A DNA stretch of 36,093 bases from positions 1-36,093 of the forward strand of contig VBHC01000127.1 in the NCBI GenBank assembly GCA_005889535.1, written 5' to 3'. Positions 27,356 through 31,530 of the stretch are shown here, in pieces (positions within the stretch are counted from its first letter, which is position 1; each line of letters begins with the position of its first letter). The DNA comes from Chloroflexota bacterium. GTDB lineage: Bacteria > Chloroflexota > Dormibacteria > CF-121. A program made the position numbers and the translations under genes. The notes beneath the pieces were generated by a model. That model made no database searches. It worked only from the letters and a program-made list of their open reading frames with translations, and had not been told where the DNA came from.

Positions 27356-27583
27356 ATGCGAGCGTACGTCCTCATCAACGCGTCGGCGGGAAAAGCCATC
27401 GAGGTCGCCAGGTCGCTTCAGGGCGTGAAGGGCATCGAGCTCGCGGACGCGATCACCGGCGAGTATGACGTGATCGCCGCTGTCGAGGCCCCCGACGTGG
27501 CCGGCATCGGCTCGATCATCGTGGAGAAGATCCAGAAGATCGACGGTGTCTTCAAGACGGTCACCTGCCTGGCGGTTCGCTAG
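27356..27583 (+). CDS. Lrp/AsnC ligand-binding (RAM) domain protein
   Basis: MRAYVLINASAGKAIEVARSLQGVKGIELADAITGEYDVIAAVEAPDVAGIGSIIVEKIQKIDGVFKTVTCLAVR. Confidence 0.88.
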   Translation: MRAYVLINASAGKAIEVARSLQGVKGIELADAITGEYDVIAAVEAPDVAGIGSIIVEKIQKIDGVFKTVTCLAVR

Positions 27584-27987
27584 CGGAGCTGGCCGTAGGC
27601 GCGGTCGACCGAGAGCGACAGCAGCAGGCGCTGCTCCTTGAGCATCGCCGCGTCGTATTCGGCCCAGTCGGGATGATCGCCCCGCACTTTGCGGTAGTAG
27701 TGGCGTAGAGCTTCAGCTAGACCGTCGCCTTCGATGAACTCCACGGTGCCCTCCGCCACCAGGTATTCATAGCGATCGCGGCCCTGGACGTGGAGGCTGG
27801 CGCGTGGGTCACGGCGAAGGTTATGGGTCTTGGCCCGGGTCTGCGTCGCCGAGATTTTGATACGGCCATCGTCATCCAGGAAATAGAGGATGTTGGAGAG
27901 CTGCGGTCTCCCGTCGCGCTTGATGGTGACCAGGATTCCATCGTGCCGCACCTTGAGGAAGTGGCGGGCGCGATCGAGGTCGATCAT
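27580..27987 (-). CDS. PPOX-class F420/FMN-dependent flavoprotein
   Basis: MIDLDRARHFLKVRHDGILVTIKRDGRPQLSNILYFLDDDGRIKISATQTRAKTHNLRRDPRASLHV. Confidence 0.9.
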   Translation of the reverse strand: MIDLDRARHFLKVRHDGILVTIKRDGRPQLSNILYFLDDDGRIKISATQTRAKTHNLRRDPRASLHVQGRDRYEYLVAEGTVEFIEGDGLAEALRHYYRKVRGDHPDWAEYDAAMLKEQRLLLSLSVDRAYGQLR

Positions 27988-28000
27988 GCCCCACAAATGC

Positions 28001-28030
28001 TACAGCCGGCGCCCGACGGCACCGGCTGTA
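28001..28030. terminator. Terminator-like 9-bp perfect hairpin
   Basis: TACAGCCGG-(12 nt)-CCGGCTGTA between Lys-rich peptide gene and PPOX gene. Confidence 0.6.
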
Positions 28031-28053: not shown

Positions 28054-28119
28054 CTACTTCTTCTTCGACGACTTCTTCGCGGCTTTCTTCTTTCCGCCTG
28101 CTTTCTTCTTTGCGGCCAT
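28054..28119 (-). CDS. 21-aa lysine-rich peptide MAAKKKAGGKKKAAKKSSKKK
   Basis: Minus-strand ATG preceded by AAGGAGGTGAG; terminated by TAG and followed by a hairpin terminator. Confidence 0.6.
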   Translation of the reverse strand: MAAKKKAGGKKKAAKKSSKKK

Positions 28120-28538
28120 CCGGGCTCACCTCCTTCTTAGCAAGATTCCCCCGGTCGGCCGCTTGTACGCCGCCGCCGAACGCGCGTGAGCGCCACGGGT
28201 ACCGTGGACGCGCGGGCGCCGGCGAGGCCGGGTACCGGAAGCAAAGAAGAGAGAGAGAAATGAGGGGAGCGACGACGCGTCGCGATCGACCCTCCTGTTC
28301 CGCGATACCACGCGTCGATGCGTATCGATGTCGACCGCGGAGTTCTTTGAATGTTGCCCTTCTTCAGATCCTCGCCCTGATCCGCGCGATGATCAGAGCG
28401 CGGCTGCGCGCTCATTAAGTGCGACCATAGCATGAATCGAGCCGTTTTGCACAGCCTCGACCCAAATTTTTTCTCGAGCGCCGCGCCGATGAGCCTCAGC
28501 GCGGGTCGACGGCAGAATTTTTCAGAATTTTCGCGGCG

Positions 28539-28685
28539 TCATGAGCAACGACCGCCATCGCAGCAGGTTTCGTAATAGAGACCGCATCCGCGACAACGAA
28601 ATTTGTGTCCATCCCAGTCCGTTGAGCCTCCGCATGGACATTCGGGACCTTCATGCGAGTCCGTTGGATGCCCTTGCACCCTCAT
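28539..28685 (-). CDS. 48-aa Cys-rich zinc-ribbon-like protein MRVQGHPTDSHEGPECPCGGSTDWDGHKFRCRGCGLYYETCCDGGRCS
   Basis: Complete ATG..TGA ORF immediately downstream of nrdJ; CxCGG-x-CxxCG pattern, seven cysteines. Confidence 0.45.
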   Translation of the reverse strand: MRVQGHPTDSHEGPECPCGGSTDWDGHKFRCRGCGLYYETCCDGGRCS

Positions 28686-28731: not shown

Positions 28732-31530
28732 TTAGGAGCAGCCGCTCGTGCTGCCGCAGTTGAGGCACTTATAGCAGGTGCCGTTGCGAATCATGATCGA
28801 GCCGCAGTCGGAGCAGGCCGGCGCATCCTCCTGGCCCTGGAAACTGATCTTGATCGGGCTAGTTTGCGCGGGCGCCGGCTTGATCGGCGCCGGCGCCGGA
28901 GCGGCGGACGCCTCAACCTCGACGATGGGTTCCCGTCGCACGATACCGATCGCTTCCTGCTGCGTCCCATCAAGGAATTTCGACGCGAGCCAGCGGAAAA
29001 TGTAGTCGGTGATCGACTTGGCGATCGGGATTTCGGGGTTCTTCGTGAAGCCGGAGGGCTCGAAACGCGTGTGGGCGAACTTCTTGACCAGCACCTCGAG
29101 CGGGACCCCATACTGCAGCGCCAGTGAGATGCTCGTGGCGAAGGCATCCATCAGGCCGGAGATCGTGCTCCCTTCCTTGGACATGACCAGGAAGATCTCG
29201 CCGGGGGTTCCATCCTCGTAAATGCCGACCGTGATATAGCCCTCGTGACCCTGGATATCGAACTTGTGCGTGATCGCCCGGCGCTCATCTGGCAGCTTGC
29301 GACGAACGGCACGGGCTGGCTCGCTCAGGGCGACCTCCCTGGTCGAGGGGGCCGGCGCGGCCGCGCTCTTCTTGCTGTCGAGCGCCGTGTTCAGCGGCTG
29401 TGACCGCTTGGAGCCGTCTCGGTAGATGGCAATCGCCTTGAGGCCCATCCGCCAGCCTTCGAGGTAGACCTCCATGATGTCCTCGGGGGTCGCCAGCTCG
29501 GGCATATTGACGGTCTTGGAGATGGCGCCGGAGATGAATGGCTGGGCCGCCGCCATCATCTTGACGTGCCCCATGTAGTGGATCGTCCGCGAGCCCTTGG
29601 CCGGCTTGAAGGCACAGTCGAATACCGCCAGGTCGTCGGCCCGCAGGTGCGGGGCGCCCTCGATAGTGTCGTTCTCGTCGATGTACTGCAGGATCTCGGA
29701 AACCTGCGTCTCGGGATAGCCGAGGCGGCGCAGGGCGATCGGCACGGTCTGGTTGACAATCTTCAACATCCCGCCGCCGACCAGCTTCTTGTACTTGACC
29801 AGGGCGATATCCGGCTCGATCCCGGTGGTGTCGCAGTCCATCATGAAGCCGATCGTGCCGGTGGGGGCGATCACGGTCGCCTGCGAGTTGCGGTAGCCAT
29901 ACAGGTCGCCGAGCTGGCAGGCCTTGTCCCAGGCGTCCCGGGCCGCGCTCAGCAACGGCAGCGGGACATGCGCCGGGTTGATGTGGTCGACGGAGCTGCG
30001 GTGCTGATCCATGACGCGCAGCATGGGCTCGCGGTTGATGGCGAAGCCGTTGAAGGAACCCTTGCGCTGGGCGATGCGGGCCGACTGCGCATAGGCCTCG
30101 CCCGTCATCACCGCGGTCAGCGCCGCCGCCACGTCGCGCCCCGCGTCGCTGTCGTAGGGCAGGCCTGACGCCATCAGCAGCGCGCCCAGGTTGGCGTAGC
30201 CGAGCCCGAGCGGTCGGAAGTCCCGGCTGTTCTGGGTGATCGCCTCGGTCGGGTAGCTGGCGTTGTCGACAAGGATCTCCTGGGCGGTGATCAAGATCCG
30301 GCAGGCCTCTCGATAGGCCTCGACGTCGAACTCGCCGCGCTCGTCCAGGAACTTCATCAGGTTGATGGACGCCAGGTTGCAGGAGGTGTTATCGAGGAAC
30401 ATGTACTCGGAGCACGGGTTCGAGGCGTTGATCCGGTCGGTGTTCGGGCAGGTGTGCCAGTGGTTGACGGTCGTGTCGTACTGCAGCCCCGGATCGCCGC
30501 AGGCCCAGGCGGCGTCGGCCATCATGCGCATCAGGTCACGCGCCCTGTAGGTATCCATGATCTGGCCGGTCGTGACGGCGAAGGTGTGCCACTCGGAATC
30601 TTCTTCGACCGCCTTCATGAAGTCGTCTTTGACCCGGACGCTGTTGTTGGAGTTCTGGAAGAAGATCGAGCTGTACGCCGGGCCGTTGAACGACGGGTCA
30701 TAGCCGCCTTCGATCAGCGTCCAGGCCTTGCGCTCCTCATCGACCTTGCAGTTGATGAACTCGACGATGTCCGGATGGTCGGCGTTGAGGATGACCATCT
30801 TGGCCGCCCGCCGCGTCTTGCCGCCCGACTTGATCACGCCGGCGAAGGCGTCGAAGCCCTTCATGAAGGAGACCGGGCCGGATGCCGTGCCGCCGCCCGC
30901 AAGCAGTTCGCGCGAGGAGCGAAGCGGCGAGAGGTTCGTGCCGGTGCCCGAACCGTACTTGAAGAGCATGCCCTCGGTCTTGGCGAGGGTGAGGATCGAC
31001 TCCATCCGGTCCTCGACCCTGTTGATAAAGCACGCCGACAATTGAGGGCGCTGCTCGATCCCGGCGTTGAACCAGACGGGACTGTTGAAGGCGGCTTTTT
31101 GATGCACCAGCAGATGCGTCAGCTCATCCCGGAAGATCTCCGACGCCTCGGGGGTTGCGAAATATCCCTGCTTGTTGGCCCACCCATGGATGGTGCGCAC
31201 GACGCGCCCGATCAGTTGCTTGACGCTGCGCTCGCGCTCCGGCGTGCCGATTACCCCGCGGAAGTACTTCGAGACCACCACGTTGGTTGCCACCTGGGAC
31301 CAGGTGGTCGGAATCTCGACTTCATGCTGTTCGAAGACGACCTCGCCCTTCTCGTTGGTGATGCTGGCCTCGCGTGTCTCCCACTGGACTTCGTCGAATG
31401 GGGCCACGCCGGGTCGGGTGAAGTAGCGCTTCCAGGGAAGGCCGTTGCGGTTGCGTTTGGGCGTCGTGCTGGGGGCCGCCGCCGTCAAGTTGGGTCGGTC
31501 AGTCGAAGTCTTCTGGGTGGATCGGGCCAT
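28732..31530 (-). CDS. nrdJ: Adenosylcobalamin-dependent (class II) ribonucleoside-diphosphate reductase
   Basis: FNSPVWFNAGI, GSGTGTNLSPLRSS, NPCSEYMFLDNTSCNLASINL, ATVIAPTGTIGFMMDCDTTGIEPD; C-terminal zinc ribbon CSDCGSIMIRNGTCYKCLNCGSTSGCS. Confidence 0.97.
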   Translation of the reverse strand: MARSTQKTSTDRPNLTAAAPSTTPKRNRNGLPWKRYFTRPGVAPFDEVQWETREASITNEKGEVVFEQHEVEIPTTWSQVATNVVVSKYFRGVIGTPERERSVKQLIGRVVRTIHGWANKQGYFATPEASEIFRDELTHLLVHQKAAFNSPVWFNAGIEQRPQLSACFINRVEDRMESILTLAKTEGMLFKYGSGTGTNLSPLRSSRELLAGGGTASGPVSFMKGFDAFAGVIKSGGKTRRAAKMVILNADHPDIVEFINCKVDEERKAWTLIEGGYDPSFNGPAYSSIFFQNSNNSVRVKDDFMKAVEEDSEWHTFAVTTGQIMDTYRARDLMRMMADAAWACGDPGLQYDTTVNHWHTCPNTDRINASNPCSEYMFLDNTSCNLASINLMKFLDERGEFDVEAYREACRILITAQEILVDNASYPTEAITQNSRDFRPLGLGYANLGALLMASGLPYDSDAGRDVAAALTAVMTGEAYAQSARIAQRKGSFNGFAINREPMLRVMDQHRSSVDHINPAHVPLPLLSAARDAWDKACQLGDLYGYRNSQATVIAPTGTIGFMMDCDTTGIEPDIALVKYKKLVGGGMLKIVNQTVPIALRRLGYPETQVSEILQYIDENDTIEGAPHLRADDLAVFDCAFKPAKGSRTIHYMGHVKMMAAAQPFISGAISKTVNMPELATPEDIMEVYLEGWRMGLKAIAIYRDGSKRSQPLNTALDSKKSAAAPAPSTREVALSEPARAVRRKLPDERRAITHKFDIQGHEGYITVGIYEDGTPGEIFLVMSKEGSTISGLMDAFATSISLALQYGVPLEVLVKKFAHTRFEPSGFTKNPEIPIAKSITDYIFRWLASKFLDGTQQEAIGIVRREPIVEVEASAAPAPAPIKPAPAQTSPIKISFQGQEDAPACSDCGSIMIRNGTCYKCLNCGSTSGCS

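Follow-up and report, generated by a model that had tools for sequence, protein, structure and literature searches.

A 21-residue polycationic micropeptide, MAAKKKAGGKKKAAKKSSKKK, is encoded on the minus strand of a stretch of DNA from uncultivated soil Chloroflexi (Dormibacteria) at a locus that, judged by comparison with its relatives, is a real gene: it combines an open reading frame (ORF) with a very strong Shine-Dalgarno (SD) sequence, conservation throughout its family and selection on its amino acids. The whole stretch analysed (the window, 36,093 nt) comes from a genome of 2.77 Mb that is 81% complete. We assign a probability of about 0.48 to the reading that the product would be made constitutively and be disordered, acting in trans as a polycation on DNA, RNA or polyphosphate much as the tail of histone H1, AlgP or HU might if it were detached. 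The gene and its ribosome-binding site are located as follows.

28054..28119, minus strand: micro-ORF of 21 aa, MAAKKKAGGKKKAAKKSSKKK, with its start ATG at 28119 and its stop TAG ending at 28054.
28125..28135, minus strand: extended Shine-Dalgarno sequence AAGGAGGTGAG, with a 9-nt spacer from GGAGG to the ATG.

The peptide is composed of 11 K, 5 A, 2 G, 2 S and 1 M, contains no acidic residues, has Ala and Met as its only hydrophobic residues and, from this composition, is presumably disordered; Lys codons account for 11 of the 20 sense codons past the start. The first-pass annotation had reported a Lys-rich peptide of 21 aa behind a perfect SD, and both are present exactly as claimed, on the minus strand, which had been left unstated. 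Neither an in-frame Lys-rich extension nor a longer Lys-rich ORF was found around the micro-ORF among the window ORFs, and the tail of a larger Lys-rich gene is ruled out, the ORF being complete at 21 aa. Pairing of the SD with a generic bacterial 16S 3' end, which may differ from that of this genome, gave a duplex energy of -18.5 kcal/mol. This value beats those of all 81 predicted genes from the window and from relatives of the same family (median -7.6, best -16.3 kcal/mol), each allowed its best start.

The region was found in 15/15 genomes of the genus and 18/18 genomes of the family (f1), and the AAGGAGGTGA motif is kept in all 18. The peptide is identical in 14 of the 15 genus genomes, the exception (G010) having S in place of GG and a length of 20 aa. 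In G017 and G015, which represent two genera beyond that of the window, it is identical save for a GTG start, with four and six synonymous codon changes, respectively; G016 carries the amino-acid changes A2P and K21R and seven synonymous changes. Non-synonymous codons number 0/20 in the micro-ORF of both G017 and G015, as compared with 33% and 29% in the adjoining gene of the pyridoxamine 5'-phosphate oxidase-like (PPOX) family. The P values for zero amino-acid changes at the PPOX rate (3e-4 for G017, 1e-3 for G015) and for the 0-2 synonymous changes seen in the micro-ORF within the genus, versus 5.5-9.4 expected from PPOX (1.3e-2 to 3e-6), are indicative only, as the calculation treats each codon independently and compares genomes in pairs, and Lys offers fewer synonymous codons than the average amino acid. 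The absence of amino-acid changes across genera, together with the scarcity of synonymous changes within the genus, points to constraint both on the peptide and on the nucleic acid or codon choice.

Low-complexity Lys codons arise easily, which is the one point in favour of the view that the ORF came about by chance in purine-rich DNA or is what remains of a larger Lys-rich protein. Such an origin is barely credible here, and chance itself is ruled out, because all 18 family genomes keep the frame, the SD and the amino acids, the reversed-pattern controls gave 0 matches and no longer Lys-rich ORF lies nearby. The earlier proposal of a real short gene is borne out, with ORF length, SD and Lys pattern all kept in relatives.

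Upstream of the ORF, the following elements were delineated.

28120..28242, minus strand: conserved 5' leader of 123 nt, a predicted rod-shaped RNA whose 3' end is the SD plus spacer.
28424..28429, minus strand: candidate -10 box TATGGT (extended, TGCTATGGT), with AAAAAATTT upstream, ~300-310 nt before the ORF.

The rod fold of the leader was predicted from the single sequence and from the alignment alike, with CUUCCGGU/ACCGGGAG as the closing stem. Leader blocks from -110 to -50 show 97% pairwise identity within the genus. Loops vary, with 7/68 paired versus 27/38 unpaired columns being variable, a comparison that is partly circular in that a consensus fold favours conserved columns, although the single-sequence fold agrees. 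No compensatory changes were found in the leader stems in the alignment of relatives, and the fold energy was not better than that of shuffled sequences (z -0.88); on these predictions, structure in the leader RNA is plausible. A model of the leader (R1) matches family f1 only and did not bear out the weak leader matches of the class search in family f2. No Rfam family matched at gathering level (best below-threshold E 1.1), which, with the confinement of the R1 leader to f1, rules out a known structured RNA family. The block with TATGGT is 95% identical in the genus and kept in those genus genomes that reach that far; identity within the genus is 90-97% over leader, ORF and hairpin, and past TATGGT conservation is uneven, mostly high for 170 bases. 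The consensus scan reported no sigma-70 site, so the TATGGT promoter is a proposal only.

Given that synonymous changes are scarce and the leader is equally conserved within the genus, some of the constraint bears on the RNA or DNA and not on the peptide. RNA could even be the main product, as a structured, conserved transcript of ~400 nt with a regulatory or dual function, the ORF being secondary and serving ribosome loading or stability. The leader and promoter region are conserved about as much as the ORF, predicted loops vary where stems do not, synonymous sites are nearly frozen in the genus, and in f4, a second family of the class, a long leader of another sequence is likewise conserved, all of which would suit such a transcript. 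We nonetheless consider it unlikely, because the leader is not common to the families, whereas the peptide type and the SD are; because the ORF changes synonymously across genera but not in amino acids; and because the Rfam, compensatory-pair and fold-energy results above lend it nothing.

The upstream neighbour (28732-31530, minus strand) is taken, from its Pfam domains and general knowledge, to be the class II ribonucleotide reductase gene nrdJ. It encodes 932 aa in the window and 1328 aa in G008 (L101), where a 393-residue insertion starts with CQPYDALVSTPKGM and ends with NNVVVHN before C; this insertion has the look of an intein that is absent from the window genome. Between nrdJ and the micro-ORF lies a 48-aa Cys-rich ORF, MRVQGHPTDSHEGPECPCGGSTDWDGHKFRCRGCGLYYETCCDGGRCS (28539-28685, minus strand), for which Pfam gave no match and which is probably a small zinc-ribbon-like protein; a similar Cys-rich sequence occupies the same place in G017. 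In G014 (L034, G014:C14:76914-77051), the promoter, leader and SD occur again ~490 bp upstream. After ATGGCCGCAAA, this extra copy runs into the 3' part of the small Cys-rich ORF, in a different frame, and it apparently arose by a tandem duplication joined at a shared GGATGGCCGCAAA.

Downstream of the micro-ORF, a hairpin and the PPOX gene follow.

28003..28028, minus strand: 11-bp hairpin, CAGCCGGTGCC-GTCG-GGCGCCGGCTG, 25 nt past the stop, with one U-G pair in the window.
27580..27987, minus strand: PNPOx_N (pyridoxamine 5'-phosphate oxidase-like, PPOX) ORF, whose ATG is 15 nt past the hairpin.

Pairing of the hairpin holds in 176/176 cells over 16 distinct sequences, as compared with 28-61% when the partner was slid by 1-3 columns, and the hairpin is paired in 18/18 family genomes. 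Its loop is of the cUUCGg type in most relatives; its variants are U-G, C-G and U-A at one pair and G-C and G-U at another, all changes being one-sided. No T-run follows it in f1 (TAGCATTTGTGG follows in the window), and the terminator scan of the window did not report it. Of the 9-bp perfect terminator hairpin claimed in the first-pass annotation, the conserved hairpin stands, with 11 bp of which one is G-U, no T-run and a position directly before the next ORF; termination by it in f1 is unproven because of the missing T-run and because it ends 15 nt before the start codon of the PPOX-family gene. The PPOX ORF is without a clear SD and is possibly on the same transcript as the micro-ORF, and the order of the two is the same in G008, G014, G015 and G017, which span three genera of f1. 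Downstream of PPOX are genes that we take, on the same grounds as for nrdJ, to be tdh-like and kbl-like, and a small ORF with an AsnC/Lrp domain is found on the other strand.

A short ORF rich in one amino acid and followed by a hairpin is also what leader-peptide attenuators of the trp, his and thr type have. By analogy, translation of or stalling on the Lys codons (11 in 20) might control the hairpin 25 nt past the stop, and hence PPOX, by attenuation or coupling, and the PPOX start 15 nt past the hairpin, its want of a clear SD and the gene order kept in three f1 genera are in keeping with this. A cis-acting role of this kind is nevertheless unlikely. The window ORF, unlike attenuators, has no cognate biosynthetic gene downstream and its contexts vary; downstream genes differ by family and phylum with no recurring lysine-biosynthesis operon; the f4 hairpin is a T-run terminator, and the gene after it is in some cases encoded on the opposite strand; and no antiterminator or competing pairing is evident by inspection. 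A lysA-like ORF downstream of a micro-ORF was read in translation only at L155. A lysine attenuator with a conserved downstream lysine operon is ruled out, as PPOX-tdh-kbl follows in f1 and varied genes follow in f4 and in other phyla.

Within the phylum, the pattern SD + MA(A)KKK was matched in 31/400 genomes (reversed control 0), some few of these matches being the starts of ordinary longer proteins. A pattern ending in KK-stop was matched in 48/110 genomes of the class (control 0/110); some few of the places listed may be other short Lys-rich ORFs (G014:C5, for example). By family, its matches were 18/18 in f1, 30/42 in f4 and 0/50 in f2 and f3 together, and the peptide is thus not essential to the class. 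Beyond f1, the phylum contains further Lys/Ala peptides of 13-27 aa with strong SDs, chiefly in f4, where they are 20-27 aa long (for example MAKKKAAKKPAKKAAKKTSKKK and MAKKKAPAKKATAKKAPAKKASSKKK) and each has GGAGGT; some f4 members have KKPAKKAAKK-type motifs, and Pro is present only in some relatives, chiefly of f4. Most f4 genes are followed by the terminator GCCGGGGTTCTGTGGAGCCCCGGC and then T-rich sequence, and most are preceded by their own long conserved leader, different in sequence from that of f1, after a promoter-like region with TTGACG and TATGG. Several genomes have two or more different copies, sometimes in tandem (L086, L090), and a record of Candidatus Dormibacteraeota (L148) contains a peptide identical to an f4 peptide. 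The f4 contexts, from reading of translations, include alpha/beta-hydrolase-like, MFS-like, oxidoreductase-like and aldo-keto-reductase-like genes and an imuA/imuB-like pair, while the f1 context is nrdJ and PPOX-tdh-kbl; as the neighbours differ, the common element is the product and not one neighbour. The f1 and f4 peptides, which differ in sequence, leader and context, may be convergent rather than homologous.

A scan with one genome per species was carried out across phyla; the range of phyla that it shows is a minimum. Among the 80 matches listed, at least 58 places encode tiny Lys-rich peptides (11-39 aa, median 62% Lys), and D or E is present in only 3 of these 58 listed tiny ORFs. A minority of the 58 listed places are Chloroflexi of the window's class; by record titles, others are Rokubacteria, Methylomirabilota (up to three in tandem), Planctomycetes (Phycisphaerae and Sedimentisphaerales among them), Eisenbacteria, Nitrospira, Omnitrophota, Terriglobia, 'Deltaproteobacteria', Limisphaerales, Parachlamydia and DPANN archaea. 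Syntrophobacter, too, is named in titles of the scan matches. The motif AAGGAGGTGA, not demanded by the search pattern, is present at 36/58 listed tiny ORFs versus 1/23 of the longer proteins that the pattern also picked up (P 1e-6), the latter being an imperfect control as they come partly from different taxa. Neighbours in other phyla are unrelated (for example nadD-like, lysA-like, lpxC-like and mutS-like ORFs, translations read). By sequence features, the window gene would be one of a class of Lys/Ala micropeptides of 11-39 aa, with like SDs and unrelated contexts in many phyla, and this class has probably arisen repeatedly.

Tandem micro-ORFs, two or three in number and each with its own SD, were seen at operon 3' ends followed by a GC-rich hairpin in Methylomirabilota (L109, L122, L160, L171) and Rokubacteria (L108, L112, L126), and at several of the Methylomirabilota tandem loci a GCACTCATA-like sequence comes after the hairpin. 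Very similar poly-Lys micro-ORFs, such as MAKKKKKNKKKDKKKKKNKKKRR, were also seen on viral-labelled contigs (L292, L326, L335, L310, L319 and others), where they are preceded by AGGAGGT.

The Rokubacteria micro-ORFs stand at an operon end, convergent with an L28-like (rpmB) ORF and followed by strong hairpins, as read from the sequence. This placement, with the size, the charge and the very strong SD, would fit a micro-protein associated with ribosomes or rRNA, akin to Thx or bL36 and highly made to match ribosomes. We judge such a role unlikely. The window peptide shares small size and strong basicity with Thx and other tiny basic ribosomal proteins, but it has no Arg, no aromatic residue, no structured motif and no Pfam or NCBIfam match; moreover, the rpmB neighbourhood was seen in Rokubacteria only, peptides of other phyla are alike in composition only, and two families of the class have none.

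In a comparison with known families at E up to 5, the window peptide matched no family in Pfam and none in NCBIfam, and the peptides tested are covered by no model of either database, so that a known protein family is ruled out. The resemblance to histone H1 or HctB tails put forward in the first-pass annotation thus holds for composition, and no known-family profile stands behind it. Chlamydial HctB is an H1-like, Lys/Ala/Pro-rich bacterial protein, and actinobacterial HU and TopA have Lys-rich C-terminal extensions with an AAKK/PAKK-like composition. Those tails are carried on folded proteins, whereas the window peptide has no folded domain. The HU-like proteins of f1, of which a few copies were read, have no long Lys-rich tail; this would fit a tail supplied in trans and does not show it. 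The f1 HU relative (L243, L250, L256) is divergent (MAKTQKWTASTFVSLV..KPRWSFPKAVREAY..), with weak PF00216 scores of ~35 bits, and G016 also has a standard HU (113.8 bits, PF00216). With the Rv3852 family (NCBIfam NF050153), the window peptide gave no match, and the f4 peptide MAKKKAPAKKATAKKAPAKKASSKKK gave a weak one (E 0.0095, 16.4 bits against a cut-off of 100 bits).

A close likeness in composition is to the histone H1-like tails, the KPAA domains of AlgP and PhaF, with which the window peptide shares the character of a Lys-rich, Ala-rich, low-complexity and presumably disordered polycation. In AlgP, a 154-aa repeat region is attached to a helical N-terminal domain (PMC9239181). The window product differs in being a free peptide of 21 aa without Pro and without a long repeat domain, encoded behind a leader and SD of its own. 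Short peptides of the KPAA type bind DNA in vitro, and the spacing and positioning of polyphosphate granules depend on the KPAA tail of AlgP, which resembles that of H1 (PMC9239181). Considered as a molecule, the peptide amounts to a known kind of disordered, Lys-rich tail reduced to a minimum. A class of free-standing micropeptides with strong translation, on the other hand, appears to be undescribed, and neither such sequences nor a description of them was found in the open literature searched (subscription journals and most preprints being outside this scope).

The composition, the lack of acidic and bulky hydrophobic residues, the strong translation signals and the indifference to context together argue for a trans-acting polycation. 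Under this preferred reading, a promoter ~300 nt upstream would yield a roughly 400-nt transcript on which the strong SD would drive very frequent initiation, and the conserved 5' leader would probably set mRNA stability or the level of expression. The peptide would then accumulate and bind polyanions in trans, nucleoid DNA first, with RNA or polyphosphate as alternatives, and would work like the detached C-terminal tail of histone H1, AlgP or an actinobacterial HU. It is the charge alone that suggests binding to nucleic acids. A wider extension, which we advance tentatively and with less than even confidence, is that the poly-Lys peptides of 11-39 aa with near-maximal SDs form a phylum-spanning class that would constitute the smallest stand-alone nucleoid or polyanion binders known and be among the most translated messages of many uncultivated bacteria.

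Gene finders with length limits are likely to overlook ORFs of only 11-30 codons, and similarity searches can lose Lys-rich ORFs to low-complexity filters, so polycationic peptides of a recurrent and strongly translated class could have stayed unnamed. The near-perfect SD with its conserved leader would be a ready candidate module for strong expression. Should the peptides accumulate, they would bring to the barely explored nucleoid biology of these phyla a minimal component for condensing chromatin or RNA, and would be a strikingly short example of a protein kept by strong purifying selection.
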